A DNA stretch of 64,000 nt from Paraburkholderia fungorum (lineage in GTDB: Bacteria; Pseudomonadota; Gammaproteobacteria; Burkholderiales; Burkholderiaceae), in contig NZ_FNKP01000001.1 in NCBI RefSeq assembly GCF_900099835.1, positions 1,178,001 to 1,242,000 on the forward strand, given 5' to 3'. Of this stretch, positions 40,749 through 48,022 are shown piece after piece. Under the pieces are notes generated by a model, which was not told the origin of the DNA, did not search any database, and saw nothing but the letters and a program-made list of their open reading frames with translations. Position numbers and translations under genes: made by a program. The number at the start of each line of letters is the position of its first letter. Positions within the stretch are counted from its first letter, which is position 1.

Positions 40749-41939
40749 ATGGCGATCCGGGGACTCTTATGGCTGGCGTTGCTGTTCGCGATTGCCGTCG
40801 CGCTGGCGGTGGTCGGACGCTTCGACACGGGGCAGGTGCTGCTGATCTATCCGCCGTACCGCGTCGACATTTCGTTGAATCTGTTCGTGGTCGGGCTGGT
40901 GGTGCTGTTCATCCTGCTGTATGCGCTGTTGCGCATCGTCCGCAATATCTGGCGCATGCCGCAGCGCGTGGCCGCTTACCGTGCGCGCTCGCGGGTCGCC
41001 AAGGCGCACGCGGCGCTGCGTGATGCGATCGGCAATCTGTACGCGGGGCGTTTTTCGCGCGCTGAAAAAGCCGCGAAAGATGCGCTCGCGAATGGCGACA
41101 ACAACGGTGCAGCCGGTTTGATCGCGGCGACGGCCGCGCATCGTATGCATGAATATGCGCGGCGTGATGAGTGGCTGTCGCAGATCAATGAAGCCGACTG
41201 GCAGGATGCGCGTCTGATGGCCACCGCCGACATGCGCGCCGATGGCCGCGACGCGGACGGCGCACTGATTGCGCTGACCGAAATGCAATCGCAGGGCTCG
41301 CGGCGCATTCACGCGCAGCAGATCATGTTGCGCGCGCAGCAGCAATTGAAGAACTGGGGCGAAGTGCTCAAGCTCGTCAAGACGCTGGAAAAGCGCGAGG
41401 CGATTCATCCGGCGGTGGCGGTGCGGTTGCGTCAACTGGCGGCGGAAAATCTGCTGCGTGACCGTCGACATAATGCGGATGCGCTGCTGGAATTGTGGAA
41501 CTCGCTGTCGGCGACCGAGCGTCATTCGCCGCGTCTGGCCGATCTCGCTGCGGAATTGCTGGTGGCGCTGAATCGACCGCAGGAAGCGCGCAAGATTGTC
41601 GAGGAAGCGCTGGCGCAGAACTGGGACGCGCGCCTGTTGCGCCGTTATCCGGATACGACTGGCGGTGATGCGTTGCCGCTGATTCAGAAGGCCGAAGGTT
41701 GGCAGAAGGATCGTCCGGAAGATGCTGATTTGCTGTTTGCGTTGGGGCGGTTGTGTCTGCATCAGCAGTTGTGGGGCAAGGCGCAATCGTTCCTTGAGCG
41801 CGCGCTGAAGCTGGCGGATAACGAGACGCTGAAGATTCGCTCGCATCGTGCGTTGGCCCGGTTGCATGAGCAGCTTGGGGATAGCGATAAGGCTAGCCAG
41901 CATTATCGTGAGAGTGCGTTGGCGATGAATGTGGTTTGA
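40749..41939 (+). CDS. hemY: Heme biosynthesis-associated TPR protein HemY
   Basis: 396-aa inner-membrane protein. Two N-terminal membrane helices (about 5-22 and 40-62) carry the HemY_N region, with RMPQRVAAYRARSRV just after, followed by TPR-like helical repeats in the cytoplasm or periplasm (e.g. LFALGRLCLHQQLWGKAQSFLERAL). It is linked to the last steps of heme synthesis by genetics and by position; no enzymatic activity is known for this type, which is unrelated to the protoporphyrinogen oxidase also called HemY. It starts two bases after the hemDX stop. Confidence 0.93.
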   Translation: MAIRGLLWLALLFAIAVALAVVGRFDTGQVLLIYPPYRVDISLNLFVVGLVVLFILLYALLRIVRNIWRMPQRVAAYRARSRVAKAHAALRDAIGNLYAGRFSRAEKAAKDALANGDNNGAAGLIAATAAHRMHEYARRDEWLSQINEADWQDARLMATADMRADGRDADGALIALTEMQSQGSRRIHAQQIMLRAQQQLKNWGEVLKLVKTLEKREAIHPAVAVRLRQLAAENLLRDRRHNADALLELWNSLSATERHSPRLADLAAELLVALNRPQEARKIVEEALAQNWDARLLRRYPDTTGGDALPLIQKAEGWQKDRPEDADLLFALGRLCLHQQLWGKAQSFLERALKLADNETLKIRSHRALARLHEQLGDSDKASQHYRESALAMNVV

Positions 41940-42128: not shown

Positions 42129-42593
42129 TTAGTGCTGCGCGGTGGACGGTTGTTGCACGGGCGAGGAGGGCAGCTTGATCGCGCGTTTCGCGGACGGCTT
42201 TTTGTTGAGCGAAGCGTTCGTGTCTTCGATGGACGCTTTGGCAATCTTCGATGCGTCGGCCAGCAAGTTTGTCGCTTGATGCGCCGTGAGACGGCTGCGC
42301 GGGACGCCCTTCGCGTCGAGCGCAATCACCTGGAACAACTCGCGCTCGCATTCGAGATCCCGCTGATACTGTTCGGCCGTGTCCACCAGTAATTCGAGCA
42401 AGGTCTGACGACGTTTTCTTTCGTCGTGTGTGAACGCAGGATTTCTAACTATCGATGACGCAAGTGTGATCAACGTGTCCAGTTGACTCAACTGCCGGTC
42501 GCATAAATCGAATGCGGACAGGGCGAGTTTCTCGTATTGGATGGCGTCGACTGGCGGGCGTGAAGCGGGTTGATTCTTGACGGACCTGGACAT
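42129..42593 (-). CDS. Hypothetical helical protein behind a C4-like RNA leader
   Basis: 154 aa from the ATG ending at 42593 (AGGGAGA about eleven bases upstream). Predicted mostly helical, with the hydrophobic LALSAFDLCDRQLSQLDTLI stretch (about 21-40) and a Lys/Ser/Pro-rich C-terminus. I do not recognise a named domain. The pattern of amphipathic helices recalls the small DUF3077/DUF6124 proteins of Pseudomonas, which in my memory also follow C4-type antisense RNAs, but the similarity is only structural by eye. Its 250-base leader is highly structured (next entries). Confidence 0.7.
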   Translation of the reverse strand: MSRSVKNQPASRPPVDAIQYEKLALSAFDLCDRQLSQLDTLITLASSIVRNPAFTHDERKRRQTLLELLVDTAEQYQRDLECERELFQVIALDAKGVPRSRLTAHQATNLLADASKIAKASIEDTNASLNKKPSAKRAIKLPSSPVQQPSTAQH

Positions 42594-42618
42594 GGTGCGA
42601 TCTCCCTGTTGCTTCGAT

Positions 42619-42843
42619 GGGGAGCCCGGACACTGGCCTTGCTTTTGTGGGAAGAAGGGGTGAGCGGGCACGAAGTAGGGTTAGCAGACCGGCGTTCCAA
42701 CATCCCGGCGAGCCTTGCGGCTCCCCCACCAAGGCCCGCCCATTGAAATATAGACGTGCAGAGGTAGACGCACGACCTGCCTGGGCAGGTGTGCGGTTGG
42801 AACGTCAGGCTGCTAAACCTGGTCGCTGGGTGTTTCCCGACGA
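42619..42843 (-). ncRNA. C4-like antisense RNA / structured leader
   Basis: Minus-strand leader of the 42129-42593 gene. In transcript order (falling coordinates): one arm of a long imperfect inverted repeat (42819-42796), the hairpin ACCTGCC-tg-GGCAGGT (42790-42775), a hairpin GAGCC-GCAA-GGCTC (42723-42710) that carries GGGGGAGCC on its 5' side, then the second arm (42701-42679), nearly complementary to the first over about 23 bases. Near the gene, GGCTCCCC (42626-42619) is exactly complementary to GGGGAGCC of the middle hairpin (42726-42719). Two separated complementary segments feeding onto a downstream gene is the architecture of phage P1 C4 antisense RNA. A perfect TATAAT (42856-42851) precedes it. 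Confidence 0.55.
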
Positions 42844-42850
42844 CTTGGTA

Positions 42851-42856
42851 ATTATA
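42851..42856 (-). promoter_or_regulatory. -10 element of the C4-like transcript
   Basis: Perfect TATAAT on the minus strand. The -35 region is weak (TTTAAG-like at about 15 bases). The predicted start is near 42844. Confidence 0.5.
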
Positions 42857-43244: not shown

Positions 43245-43964
43245 GTGGCAGACAAACATCCGTACATGTCGGGCTCCGGTGGGGTCACCCAGCTTACGAC
43301 CCAACTGCGACGTAGCTTTCCCGCAGTCGTTACGGCCGACACACTGAAGAAGTTGGGAATCGCGCCTAACAACGAAACGTACGTCCTGAACATCCTCAAG
43401 TTCATCGGCGTGCTCGATGCAGAGAATAAGAAGACGGCAGCAGCGACGCCCATCTTCAACCAGCACAACGACAGCGACTTCCAGGAGCAGTTCTCCAGGC
43501 TGGTGGGACAGGCATACCACGAGTTGTTCGACCTGCATGGTCCTGATGCCTGGGGGTTGCCGATCGACAAGCTCATCGCGTTCTTCCGAAATCACGACGG
43601 GACGAGTGACATCGTCGGAAAGAGGCAAGCATCCACGTTCCAAGCTTTGGCGCGCATCTCCGGCAGGGCCGTGGATGAGTCGGAGCCAGCCAAATCATCG
43701 GGTTCCGGAGCCGCGAAAGTTGTAAAGAAGGTGGCTCCTGCGAAGAAGGCCACCACTTTCACTGAGAAGACCGCAGCGCCGCCACCTGCACCGGCTGGTG
43801 CCCACTCGTCGGCCTCCGCTCCAGCACTGAACGGCGGTGCCTTCAACAACGCTAACGTAGGGCTCACGGTGCGCATAGAGATCAATTTGCCACCTGGCGG
43901 AGATCAGGACACGTACGACGCTATCTTCAAGAGCATTCGCGCAAACCTGCTGAACGGGCAATGA
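43245..43964 (+). CDS. DUF5343-type protein
   Basis: 239 aa from a GTG at 43245, supported by GGAGGG seven bases upstream. The N-terminal 150 residues (YMSGSGGVTQLTTQLRRSFP, then VVTADTLKKLGIAPNNETYV, LNILKFIGVLD) match my recollection of DUF5343, a predicted winged-helix-like domain of unknown function. A Lys/Ala/Pro-rich linker (about 152-185) leads to a short C-terminal beta-alpha element (VGLTVRIEINLPPGGDQDTY) that could bind a partner. The stop overlaps the next start (ATGA), so the two proteins are probably made together and may interact. Confidence 0.75.
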   Translation: MADKHPYMSGSGGVTQLTTQLRRSFPAVVTADTLKKLGIAPNNETYVLNILKFIGVLDAENKKTAAATPIFNQHNDSDFQEQFSRLVGQAYHELFDLHGPDAWGLPIDKLIAFFRNHDGTSDIVGKRQASTFQALARISGRAVDESEPAKSSGSGAAKVVKKVAPAKKATTFTEKTAAPPPAPAGAHSSASAPALNGGAFNNANVGLTVRIEINLPPGGDQDTYDAIFKSIRANLLNGQ

Positions 43965-44455
43965 CAACGGCATTTGAGATATTCGAGCAAATCGTTCGGC
44001 GCACCAAAGCGCCAGCGATCACTGCACCCACAGACGCGACCGAGCAACCCATGAGCCCGCTTCATCCTTTCGAACTGCGCAACGTCCATCCGGGCATGCC
44101 AGCGAAGGTTCGGAAGCTGTTCGATGATGGGCATGGCGCCGAGGCGACTTTCCATGCCTTTAAGTTCGTCGAGAAAGTTGTTCAGAAGCACAGCGGCTCC
44201 CGGGAGATCGGGCGCAAGCTAATGATGAACGTGTTCGGCAAAGCGACCCCTATGATCAAACTCAATGGGCTTGCCAACCCGAGCGAAGAGGACGAGCAAG
44301 AGGGCTATCAATTCATGTTCGCAGGTTCCGTTGCAGCGATCAGGAACCCAGGCGGACATGAGATCACCCTGAGCGACGATCCAGATGTCTGCTTAGACCA
44401 TCTGGCTTTTGCTTCATTGTTGCTCCGGAGACTTGAACGAGCGGGGTACAAATGA
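43961..44455 (+). CDS. TIGR02391/Ymh-type protein, probable HEPN RNase
   Basis: 164 aa, coupled to the DUF5343 gene by a four-base overlap. HPFELRNVHPGMPAKVRKLFDDGH starts the domain in two blocks (HPFELRNVHPGMP, KVRKLFDDGHGAEATFHAFK), with GRKLMMNVFG and the C-terminal AAIRNPGGHE (about 133-142). The last block is R-x4-H, the catalytic signature of HEPN RNases, and the Ymh/TIGR02391 family was placed in the HEPN superfamily on that basis. HEPN proteins are frequent toxins and phage-defence effectors that cut RNA. With its partner this is a candidate two-gene defence or toxin-antitoxin cassette. Activity is inferred. Confidence 0.75.
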   Translation: MTTAFEIFEQIVRRTKAPAITAPTDATEQPMSPLHPFELRNVHPGMPAKVRKLFDDGHGAEATFHAFKFVEKVVQKHSGSREIGRKLMMNVFGKATPMIKLNGLANPSEEDEQEGYQFMFAGSVAAIRNPGGHEITLSDDPDVCLDHLAFASLLLRRLERAGYK

Positions 44456-44737: not shown

Positions 44738-45466
44738 ACTTGTTAGCCATCCTCCCTGACACACTAACCGCAAGCAACCCCCCAAGCACCATAAACGCAG
44801 CCAACGTAAACATCCCCGAATCATTAGCCTATGTAGCTTGCTTAAGCCACCCCACCGCATAAGGACTCAAAAACCCCGCCAGATTGCCAATCGAATTAAT
44901 CATCGCAATCCCAGCCGCCGCGCCTGTCCCTGCCAGAATCGCCGTCGGCAGATTCCAGAACAGCGGCAGGGTAGTCAGAATGCCCATCGTCGCAAGCGTC
45001 AGCGAGGCCATCGCCAGCACGGTGTTATGCGCCCACACGACCGACAGCACCAACCCCACCGCCCCAGCAAACGCAGGCAAAGCAATATGCCAGCGCCGCT
45101 CGCACCGCCGATCCGCACTACGCGCCACCAGCACCATCGCGACAACCGCCGCCGCAAACGGAATCGCGGACAACAGTCCGATCATGAACGCATCGGTCAC
45201 ACCCGTCGCCTTGATGATCGTCGGCAGCCAGAAAGCTCATGCCATACAAACCCATCACGAACGAAAAGTACGTGAGACTAAACATAAGCACCCGCCCATT
45301 CGTGAGCACCTGACGAACCGGCATGTCATGCGTGGTCGATTCCTCTGCCGACACATGACGCTCGAGCATTTTCTGCTGTTCCTTCGTTAGCCACTTCGCG
45401 TTCGCGATTCGGTCATCGAGCATCGCAAACACCAGCACGCCGACGATGATCGACGGAATACCTTCG
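44738..45466 (-). pseudogene. C-terminal fragment of an MFS transporter gene
   Basis: Aligns base by base, at roughly 90% identity by eye, with the 3' 730 bases of the intact MFS gene at 51498-52817 (residues about 196-439). The fragment has an extra A in the stretch corresponding to AGCCAGAAGCTCACGCC (at about 45233), which breaks the frame, further changes near the 3' end that introduce a stop, and no 5' half: homology stops abruptly after GGAATACCTTCG at 45466. It cannot encode a transporter. The divergence shows that it is an old or separately acquired copy, not a fresh duplication. Confidence 0.88.
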
Positions 45467-45649
45467 TCAGTCTCCGCAGCGGGTATTGCTTGGCCTGCTA
45501 TTGCCGTTTCGTTGCTTGCAAATTCTATGTATCTATCGATCTTACGTGCCTGAAGTCAACACGGTGTTTAGGAGTTATCCGATAGGTAAAGCAGGAATGT
45601 ACCCAATAGGATGCTTGAAAAACATTCAAGTAGAAAAATTGGGATAGCT

Positions 45650-48022
45650 ATGAAAAGAAATAAAAATTTCAAAGTAGCAATAAGCCTCGCAACACAACTG
45701 CAGGCCGCATCCGTGCTTTTCACGATTGCGTTAGGAGCAAGTGCAGATACAACTTGCTTCCCACTTTACGCAAAGTCTGGCGCCACACCGGGTACGCCGA
45801 GTTGCAAGCTCACCGTTGCCAGTAATACGCCAGTTGGGTTAGGCAACTATAACTGCATCGATGACCTTGCGTTGATAGATCAATGGTGCAACACCCCTCC
45901 AACACCAATTGACGAATCTACGCCCGATGACTCCTGTCCGGTGGCGGATCCAGTGCTGCCAGCCAAAGGAGTTGTCGCGCTTTCCGAAGTCGATTTCCAA
46001 AGTGGCGGCGCATCACCCATCGTGTTCTCGCGAGTCTATCTTTCGCAGCCCTACGACAAGAATCAGACGCTGATGGGGAGCAACTGGGTTAGCAACTGGC
46101 AACGACGGATTGATCTGACTGGCGCCAATGCGAGTGTGCCGCATATCGTCGCCTATCGAGGATTCTGGCAACCTGTGACCTTCAAGTTGAGCGGGGGAGC
46201 GTGGGTTGTACCAGGAAATCCCGGTCTCACTCTCACGAAATCCGACGACGGATTCTATTACTTGAAAGACGAGCAACGTGGTACGACAGAGGGTTACTCG
46301 GACACCACGGGCATGTTCTATACCGAGACAACACGCACGGGCGAGCTTCGCGAGGCTTATTACGATGGACCGCGGTTATCGGAGATTGTCCAGCGACCGG
46401 TCGATAGCGCAACAAGCACAGCACAAAACAGATTGGTGCTCAGTTTCGCCTACGACACGAGTGGCCACATCATTGCTGTAGTGCCTCCTAGCGGGAACGC
46501 GGTACATTATTCGTACGATGCGAAAGGGAATCTTGCTTCGGTTACTCCACCCTACGGGACGCTCCGTCAATATTTCTATGAAGACGTGCGTTTTTCTAAT
46601 GCACTGACAGGCGTAACGGACGAATCCGGTTCTCGAATTGCAACGTGGAATTACGATGCCAGCGGTCGCGTAGCCTCGGTCACGCATCCGGATACCACTC
46701 GCAATGCTTCGCTGAGCTATGGTTCTGGCACGACAACAGTGACAGACCTGTCTGGTACCAGTACGTATAGCTTCAGTACTTCAGATACGTTGCGCCCGAT
46801 TTCGATTACCACGCCTGGCGGTGCCGTATCGCGCGCGTGGGATACAGCGGGCAATCTGAAGCAGCGAACGACGCCTGACGGCAACACGCAGTACACATGG
46901 GACAGCGCTAACCGGCCAATCAAGGCATTTGCTACGGTCGCTGGGGTGAAAACCGTCACGACAATCGAATATTCTGATGGCAGTTCCCTGCGCCCTCATT
47001 TGGTCGCTACGCCAGGCAAAGTACGCGCGTTCGTCTATGACTCAAACGGTAACGTCACGGGTTATGCAGAGCGACAAACAACTGACCTGACAGGCGAACA
47101 GGGGATGCAGGCGATCGCGACGGGCAGCCAGTTGGTCGTTGGCGCACGCTACGACGGTGCAAACCGCCTTTTGTCGGCTACGGTAACCCAGGACGGCAAG
47201 ACAGTAGAAGACTGGACCTACACGTACGACGCAAGGGGCAACATTGCATTAACCCGGGATGCCGTGTCGGGTTGGCAGATGAAAACGGTGGACCGCAGCA
47301 ACGAAGATCGCGCGAAAACTATCGCGAGTAGTAGTGGTCAGGCAGACATTACTTACGATCCCCGCGGTCGCGTAACGAGTTTTACCTATGATGAACCGGC
47401 CGGCATTATTAATGGCGGTCTAGCTCGCAAGTTGCAGGTGGATTACGAATATGGTCCGGACGGCGGGGTGTCAACACGCACTGGGAAGGTGTCAACGAAC
47501 GGAGGATGGTGGCAAACGATTAGCGATGCCGAATTAGACGCATGGCTCACTAACTGGGAATTGGGTAATGATCCCGTTTCGCCGCAGGCTAACCTCACAG
47601 GAGTCCGATCAAGCGCTGATGCCTATGTTCCAAGCCTCTGCGTTGAGTGCTATATGGCGTGGAAAGCTAACTTGACGGGCAAACTTTATAGTGGGGAGTT
47701 AACCGAGGTGCTTCCGCAGTGGGGCGAGAAAACGGAACTGATGCTGAGCGATCAGTCGCAGGTGCCATATCCGACTCTTATGCCAGATGTGGCCGCTTCC
47801 GCAAAGCGGTCAATGCTTTACAGTTCGCTCTTCCAGGGAGGAAGCACAGCGGGCGGGATGGTAAAGTGCAGCGGTCGAGAATCTCACGAATCACGATGTT
47901 TTGACCAATACGAGACGGATCTGGATTTTTGTAGACTGGTGGCTAAACCTAGAGGCGATCGAAACTACGCGCTGTGTAAAGCCAATGCTTTTGACAGATA
48001 TCAACAATGCAGGGGATATTAA
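45650..48022 (+). CDS. Sec-exported YD-repeat (RHS-like) protein with Cys-rich C-terminus
   Basis: 790 aa from the ATG at 45650 (GGGAT upstream); an in-frame ATG at 45611 would hide the signal peptide. A signal peptide ends near GASAD (about 34), followed by a Cys-containing segment, a DUF6531-like start (VDFQSGGASPIVFSRVYLSQ, about 95-115) and at least eight YD repeats (e.g. YDAKGNLASVTPP, YDASGRVASVTHPD, YTYDARGNIALTRD). The hyper-conserved RHS core end (PxxxxGLxxxxYN type) is missing; from about residue 615 the sequence is unique and ends in a small domain with CxxxYExDxxFC and CKANAFDRYQQC. This may be a toxin tip. The next gene overlaps the stop and is a likely immunity gene. Codon use is more A/T-rich than the flanks. 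Confidence 0.82.
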   Translation: MKRNKNFKVAISLATQLQAASVLFTIALGASADTTCFPLYAKSGATPGTPSCKLTVASNTPVGLGNYNCIDDLALIDQWCNTPPTPIDESTPDDSCPVADPVLPAKGVVALSEVDFQSGGASPIVFSRVYLSQPYDKNQTLMGSNWVSNWQRRIDLTGANASVPHIVAYRGFWQPVTFKLSGGAWVVPGNPGLTLTKSDDGFYYLKDEQRGTTEGYSDTTGMFYTETTRTGELREAYYDGPRLSEIVQRPVDSATSTAQNRLVLSFAYDTSGHIIAVVPPSGNAVHYSYDAKGNLASVTPPYGTLRQYFYEDVRFSNALTGVTDESGSRIATWNYDASGRVASVTHPDTTRNASLSYGSGTTTVTDLSGTSTYSFSTSDTLRPISITTPGGAVSRAWDTAGNLKQRTTPDGNTQYTWDSANRPIKAFATVAGVKTVTTIEYSDGSSLRPHLVATPGKVRAFVYDSNGNVTGYAERQTTDLTGEQGMQAIATGSQLVVGARYDGANRLLSATVTQDGKTVEDWTYTYDARGNIALTRDAVSGWQMKTVDRSNEDRAKTIASSSGQADITYDPRGRVTSFTYDEPAGIINGGLARKLQVDYEYGPDGGVSTRTGKVSTNGGWWQTISDAELDAWLTNWELGNDPVSPQANLTGVRSSADAYVPSLCVECYMAWKANLTGKLYSGELTEVLPQWGEKTELMLSDQSQVPYPTLMPDVAASAKRSMLYSSLFQGGSTAGGMVKCSGRESHESRCFDQYETDLDFCRLVAKPRGDRNYALCKANAFDRYQQCRGY

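Follow-up and report, generated by a model that had tools for sequence, protein, structure and literature searches.

Leader and gene family

The window, that is, the whole stretch of 64,000 nucleotides of Paraburkholderia fungorum DNA analysed here, carries on its minus strand a gene for a 154-aa protein, preceded by a structured leader. This leader extends between TATAAT at 42856-42851(-) and the ATG at 42593-42591, positions which had been noted in a sequence-only reading of the window and which were confirmed by sequence. Its parts, together with the gene, are as follows:

42851..42856, minus strand: -10 promoter element TATAAT, exact in 65 of 72 aligned leaders
42822..42844, minus strand: 5' hairpin of the a1/b1 (seqA/isrK-like) element, 93.5% of cells paired
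42806..42821, minus strand: target hairpin, whose loop UUAGCAG (42816-42810) is predicted to pair with the C4 junction CUGCUAA (42687-42681)
42796..42804, minus strand: target segment CGUUCCAAC, predicted to pair with the C4 hairpin loop GUUGGAACG (42701-42693)
42769..42795, minus strand: strong hairpin in the position of a phage-type terminator, without U-run; 95.2% of cells paired, with covariation
42755..42774, minus strand: weak terminator-like alternative hairpin, followed by UCUAUAUUU (terminator scan match)
42656..42747, minus strand: C4 antisense RNA (Rfam RF01695, 60.6 bits, cut-off 45)
42602..42607, minus strand: Shine-Dalgarno AGGGAG, from the sequence and conserved in the leader alignment
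42129..42593, minus strand: 154-aa protein, predicted helical hairpin, with 472 homologs

A consensus promoter scan, which requires a -35 element as well, does not list the TATAAT at 42851-42856. The local hairpins described earlier are present, three of them in the 5' part (42844-42822, 42821-42806 and 42795-42769), with covariation, and further ones inside the C4. In the alignment of 72 leaders the 5' hairpins are supported separately, with 95.3% of cells paired overall and double changes in 14 of 24 pairs (7 of 8 in the hairpin 42822-42844). The leader as a whole (42848-42591) is predicted to fold via a long inverted repeat at -111.9 kcal/mol (z = -4.28).

The 154-aa protein is present in one copy in its own genome, and among the 120 matches listed of its 472 homologs those that name an organism are Paraburkholderia or Burkholderia records. 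It matched no family in Pfam, NCBIfam or PADLOC, and in PHROGs found weak matches only (E 0.14 and 0.17); its structural model has a mean pLDDT of 68.8. The dN/dS of the gene family lies between 0.14 and 0.30 over 13 comparisons, which indicates that the protein is under purifying selection. In a family-wide sample the protein occurs in 7 of 200 genomes, all belonging to the genus of the window (one of 25 genera), and no homolog was found in IMG/VR viral contigs, 50,697 phage records and 72,556 plasmid records. Species genomes were also scanned, which yielded 131 relatives; the best 80 of these entered the comparison of loci, together with flanks of up to 4 kb on both sides. A C4 lies at the leader of the gene in 74 of these 80 homologous loci as well as in the window, as judged by a C4 model built from 42 sequences, which match by construction; the six loci without a match include one at a contig edge (L093). 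In one of the 74 (L037), a decaying unit, some 75 inserted bases split the C4, and the start codon reads CTG instead of ATG.

The neighbours of the gene in the window are, as we read their open reading frames, heme genes, with ORF 40749-41939 taken to be hemY. The same heme genes adjoin the gene in 12 of the 80 loci, and any other neighbour family is shared by five loci at most. Given this neighbourhood, and as no homolog turned up in the phage, viral and plasmid collections, the gene is not a phage antirepressor operon. One copy in P. metrosideri (L034) is homologous to the window up to 41804, inside the 3' end of ORF 40749-41939, as if duplicated from the hemY-adjacent locus. Elsewhere around the leader the window contains a divergent pair of genes on the plus strand (43245-43964 and 43961-44455; DUF5343 and Hypoth_Ymh), which matches the candidate defence models PDC-M34A and PD-Lambda-3_B of PADLOC, and, at 44829-45438 (-), pieces in different frames that we take for an MFS-type transporter, probably a pseudogene, adjoined by a YD-repeat ORF (45611-48022).

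C4 RNA and its upstream target

The C4 identity proposed for the leader is borne out by the Rfam C4 model, which matches 42747-42656(-) well above its cut-off; in a Rfam scan of the whole window the sole other match is one tRNA. On the upstream part two related models remain below threshold: at 42857-42802 c4-a1b1 scores 21.8 bits against a cut-off of 46.7, and at 42844-42770 isrK scores 21.5 bits against one of 50. A search of the own genome with isrK (RF01394) gave 0 matches, the controls of that search being silent too. A second C4 of the same genome (45.5 bits) lies on another contig (C3; locus L002, 1501-1592, minus strand); it has, by eye, a matching upstream element of its own and no match to the profile of the gene family after it, and looks like an orphan C4. 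An ORF further on from it is presumably PAAR-like.

Within the 72 aligned leaders the C4 fold has 97.0% of its cells paired and double changes in 11 of 27 pairs. None of these falls in the nearly invariant outer stem, where the GG on the 5' side is kept across leaders; they are located in the inner stem and in the hairpins P2 and P3, a sign that the C4 fold is maintained in its own right as well.

The imperfect inverted repeat reported between 42819-42796 and 42701-42679 is real: the best antiparallel match of 24 nt has 20 matching positions, a value reached in 0 of 300 dinucleotide shuffles. By its sequence, this long inverted repeat is the putative a1/b1 target pairing with the C4 loops. Compensatory change, for which a comparison of homologous leaders had been suggested, was found in that 12 of the 15 long-range a1/b1:C4 pairs change on both sides. 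These pairs have 95.6% of cells paired in the 72-leader alignment, double-sided changes span 273 cells, and sliding the partner by 1-3 columns reduces pairing to 24-46%. In 0 of 500 shuffles was the observed covariation reached on four of five measures, while the fifth, further pair types, was not above the shuffles (24 vs 27.6); these shuffle controls ignore the relatedness of the leaders. The 29 distinct loop 8-mers in the 72 leaders, a count that depends on the alignment, imply many independent changes. Of the two parts of the target, the UUAGCAG:CUGCUAA pairing has 97.6% of cells paired and double changes in 5 of 7 long-range pairs, and the CGUUCCAAC:GUUGGAACG pairing shows double changes in 7 of 8 tested pairs, with 0 of 5000 in the cognate energy test.

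Nine of 81 leaders had been left out of the alignment: L037 (interrupted C4), L086 (a1 part absent), L083 and L093 (contig edge), and L048, L096, L101, L109 and L110, which have no C4. For the energy permutation test 71 of the 81 leaders could be parsed; among these, cognate pairing of C4 with the upstream element amounts to -27.9 kcal/mol vs -19.9 for non-cognate combinations (0 of 5000 permutations). For C4 membership and the predicted a1/b1 pairing the support is thus close to the best that a comparison of sequences can give.

Codes of paralogous copies

In several genomes the gene family is present in many copies, with 6-11 matches per genome (some of them fragments) in 13 of 15 genomes that were chosen for many C4 matches. 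The specificity of the pairing was analysed in 13 genomes, likewise chosen for many C4 matches, with 5-9 usable copies each; 98 rows entered this analysis, of which 89 were fetched and 87 used, and 81 of the latter could be parsed for code counts. In 85 of the 87 copies the C4 pairs best with its cognate leader (within-genome permutation 0 of 5000); for 17 of the 87, a competitor in the same genome comes within 3 kcal/mol. The 81 parsed copies hold 53 distinct codes. Having an own code per paralogous unit suggests that each C4 mainly recognises its own leader.

Divergence of the codes is seen even between leaders that are otherwise almost the same. Among 25 pairs of leaders at least 95% identical outside the codes, code identity is below 0.6 in 7 and at least 0.95 in 16, the extreme example having an identity of 0.98 outside the code and 0.40 inside; among pairs 90-95% identical outside the codes, the identity of the b-code is below 0.6 in 91 of 157. 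The orthologous site beside the heme genes likewise carries 6 distinct codes in 11 genomes. Judged by their sequences, then, the codes diverge within genomes. An avoidance of equal codes within a genome was not significant (735 of 10000). Among individual copies, L098 has non-matching upstream and C4 code halves, and L174 and L187 show weak cognate pairing between the two; these three are possibly recombinants or decaying copies.

Ribosome site, termination and mode of action

As textbook switches of phage immunity, C4 and CI RNAs have a target at the ribosome site. Such a target had been suspected here in an exact 8-base complement between GGGGAGCC (42726-42719) and GGCTCCCC (42626-42619). 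The complement exists, but it lies at chance level, as dinucleotide shuffling of the downstream part yields an exact match of at least 8 bases in 298 of 2000 cases, and it is not conserved, as GGCTCCCC is carried by 2 of 72 homologous leaders; GGGGAGCC, moreover, belongs to the P2 stem of the C4 and not to a specificity loop. With the energy method, the upstream target of the window is equalled in 0 of 1000 shuffles and the downstream one in 121 of 1000, the corresponding values for the positive controls being 2 and 10 for P1 and 3 and 0 for P4. Across the family, cognate pairing with the downstream part or ribosome-binding site was found neither among 71 leaders (-16.9 vs -16.8 kcal/mol; 1793 of 5000 permutations) nor within genomes (4568 of 5000, with over-long segments).

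As a contrast set, 30 C4 loci were taken from the best matches in 144 genomes of the genus; four of them have the family gene and the remaining 26 are of phage or satellite type. Among these 26, pairing proves cognate on the upstream as well as on the downstream side (0 of 5000 for either), and 23 of them (all but L015, L016 and L024) have, at the Shine-Dalgarno or next to it, a stretch of 8-10 exactly complementary bases. Their b' loops contain CCT, TCC or CTT, i.e. anti-Shine-Dalgarno motifs, in 26 of 26 cases vs 7 of 72 in the family, and CCT alone in 17 of 26 vs 0 of 72. Several of these loci have replication-type genes after the C4; among 10 proteins scanned, one each from 10 loci, three match DUF3987 and two PriCT_2. 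In another genus of the same taxonomic family (g24) there are up to 20 C4 matches per genome (e.g. G206, G240), and the two g24 loci that were inspected by eye, L206 and L212, resemble the phage-type loci in having a complement of the loop at the Shine-Dalgarno.

As far as sequence tells, the family therefore lacks a target of the kind seen at the ribosome site of P1, of P4 and of the 26 phage/satellite-type loci. The earlier claim that a chromosomal gene is under C4-type control holds for the chromosomal location and the C4 leader, and is not supported as regards P1-type control through a second complement near the start codon. That the C4 should repress translation near the ribosome-binding site via GGGGAGCC:GGCTCCCC, in the classical mode of P1, has in its favour that the exact complement exists and that ribosome-site targets occur by sequence in P1, P4 and the local phage-type loci; it is nonetheless highly improbable, given a complement at chance level, a family devoid of cognate downstream pairing and loops that mostly lack anti-Shine-Dalgarno motifs. 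With the ribosome-site target absent, the C4 most likely acts on the 5' leader and not on the Shine-Dalgarno.

We consider it probable, though by no means certain, that a C4/CI-type RNA derived from the transcript of the target gene pairs with a1/b1 of the same leader and lowers its expression. The C4 would be excised, presumably by RNase P, from the transcript of the controlled gene; its two specificity loops would pair with a1/b1, the seqA-like element at the 5' end of the leader it came from, and expression would be lowered via the nascent or full-length 5' leader instead of by covering the Shine-Dalgarno. The C4 loops could bind a1/b1 either in trans or within the same molecule. P4 CI/seqA being the nearest precedent found for action on an upstream target, repression through the 5' leader is favoured, and repression rather than activation is the most likely outcome; both the regulatory output and the function of the protein are what we infer here. 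The step affected could be premature transcription termination or decay of the leader, a proposal that we hold tentatively, at slightly less than even chances. Termination, as a step, is without a clear terminator, since the U-run is missing and the alternative hairpin lacks real covariation: a run of at least five T before the C4 is found in 0 of 72 family leaders vs 23 of 26 phage-type loci (the compared regions differ slightly), and the hairpin 42755-42774, which overlaps the 3' arm of the hairpin 42769-42795, has 95.3% of cells paired with almost no covariation. Terminator-like scan matches in the window number 3, vs 2.7 in shuffles.

The main rival is a cis-acting bistable leader, akin to structures A and B of IsrK, that would need no free antisense RNA. 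Here the a1/b1:C4 helix would open the outer stem of the C4, whose 3' arm GCCCG would then pair with CGGGC upstream of the Shine-Dalgarno. The minimum free energy and centroid folds contain the long-range helix, so that the sequence data do not call for a free C4, and over 72 leaders the predicted probability of this helix correlates with that of the C4 outer stem at -0.91 and with the pairing of the 3' arm downstream at 0.86. GCCCG:CGGGC is nearly invariant in 34 aligned leaders but shows no compensatory change, and predicted accessibility of the Shine-Dalgarno does not follow the helix (correlation 0.04); with 0.46 in the full leader vs 0.47 in the RNA cut at the C4, no direct read-out is visible. 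A related switch has been shown for IsrK (PMC4825925). The C4 fold, however, including P2 and P3, is kept with covariation of its own, and a cis switch alone does not explain different codes on near-identical copies, so that we regard it as rather unlikely. Action mainly in trans on other RNAs, such as prophage leaders or chromosomal messages, with a1/b1 only titrating the C4, appears more doubtful still. Some cross pairs between family and phage-type elements are energetically fair (the best at -29.5 and -34.8 kcal/mol) and the same genome contains the second, orphan C4, but searching the own genome for the target code turned up 5 matches, two of which are the leader and, on the opposite strand, the C4 stretch, the remaining three being widely spaced; a reversed control pattern gave 7, and family loops are mostly devoid of the anti-Shine-Dalgarno motifs of phage-type targets.

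Among known systems, the C4 of P1/P7 is a free RNA of about 77 nt after RNase P processing. It resembles the present one in covariance model (RF01695) and fold, in its place in the leader of the controlled gene, and in its two specificity segments and upstream a1/b1 target; the family differs in having no a2/b2 ribosome-site target and in that its controlled gene belongs to a chromosomal single-gene family and is not icd/ant. P4 CI matches the Rfam C4 model at 74.9 bits and uses an upstream target, and P4 seqA matches isrK at 60.8 bits and c4-a1b1 at 44.1 bits, the latter below cut-off; an upstream seqA-type target of the antisense RNA appears, at the level of sequence, also here, whereas the cognate ribosome-site target and the U-run after seqA that P4 possesses are both lacking in the family. 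The isrK (RF01394)/orf45/anrP system of Gifsy-1 shares the order of 5' element, complementary C4-like part and gene as well as alternative folds; unlike it, the family has no intrinsic terminator after the 5' element and no orf45-anrP, and the isrK model is subthreshold here.

The role of C4 in P1/P7 has been reviewed (PMC12197685), P4 CI RNA is reported to control early termination by binding seqA (PMC10111431), C4 RNAs have been listed in Proteobacteria and phages by Weinberg et al. 2010 (PMC2864571), and chromids of Mycetohabitans carry C4 RNAs (PMC12696581). Acinetobacter baumannii has 21 C4-like sRNAs with variable loops, no targets being identified in the parts consulted (PMC5320573). 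These Group 1 sRNAs resemble the family in their many chromosomal copies per genome and variable specificity loops; the family C4s, unlike them as far as described there, have a covarying target in their own leader and precede one protein family. In the listed titles and abstract openings of mostly open-access literature, which for one query were those of 12 out of 2,053 papers, nothing was found on C4 RNAs without a ribosome-site target, nor on a C4 before a Paraburkholderia gene family, this family having no name to search by.

With an own code per unit and no phage-type ribosome-site target, the system resembles a phage immunity RNA that has been rewired to serve bacterial genes. As a speculative extension, which we consider rather unlikely, the genus-wide single-gene units may have made of such an RNA a set of mutually private codes for self-recognition. 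The two code halves, separated by about 100 nt, would then change in concert and at a higher rate than other parts of the leader, and each copy would control only itself, like incompatibility groups or phage heteroimmunity. The icd product of P1 is growth-inhibitory and under C4 control in the phage. The kil product of P4, likewise growth-inhibitory, is under CI RNA; kil is mentioned in PMC10111431. If the 154-aa protein were growth-inhibitory in the same way, the units would be C4-based modules resembling toxin-antitoxin systems. A phage-type C4 persists, then, on bacterial chromosomes before one conserved gene family and without a ribosome-site target. The leaders constitute a natural library of matching antisense and target codes, which would allow a direct test of upstream (seqA/a1b1) binding on its own and bears on the evolution of orthogonal antisense codes and the domestication of phage immunity RNAs.
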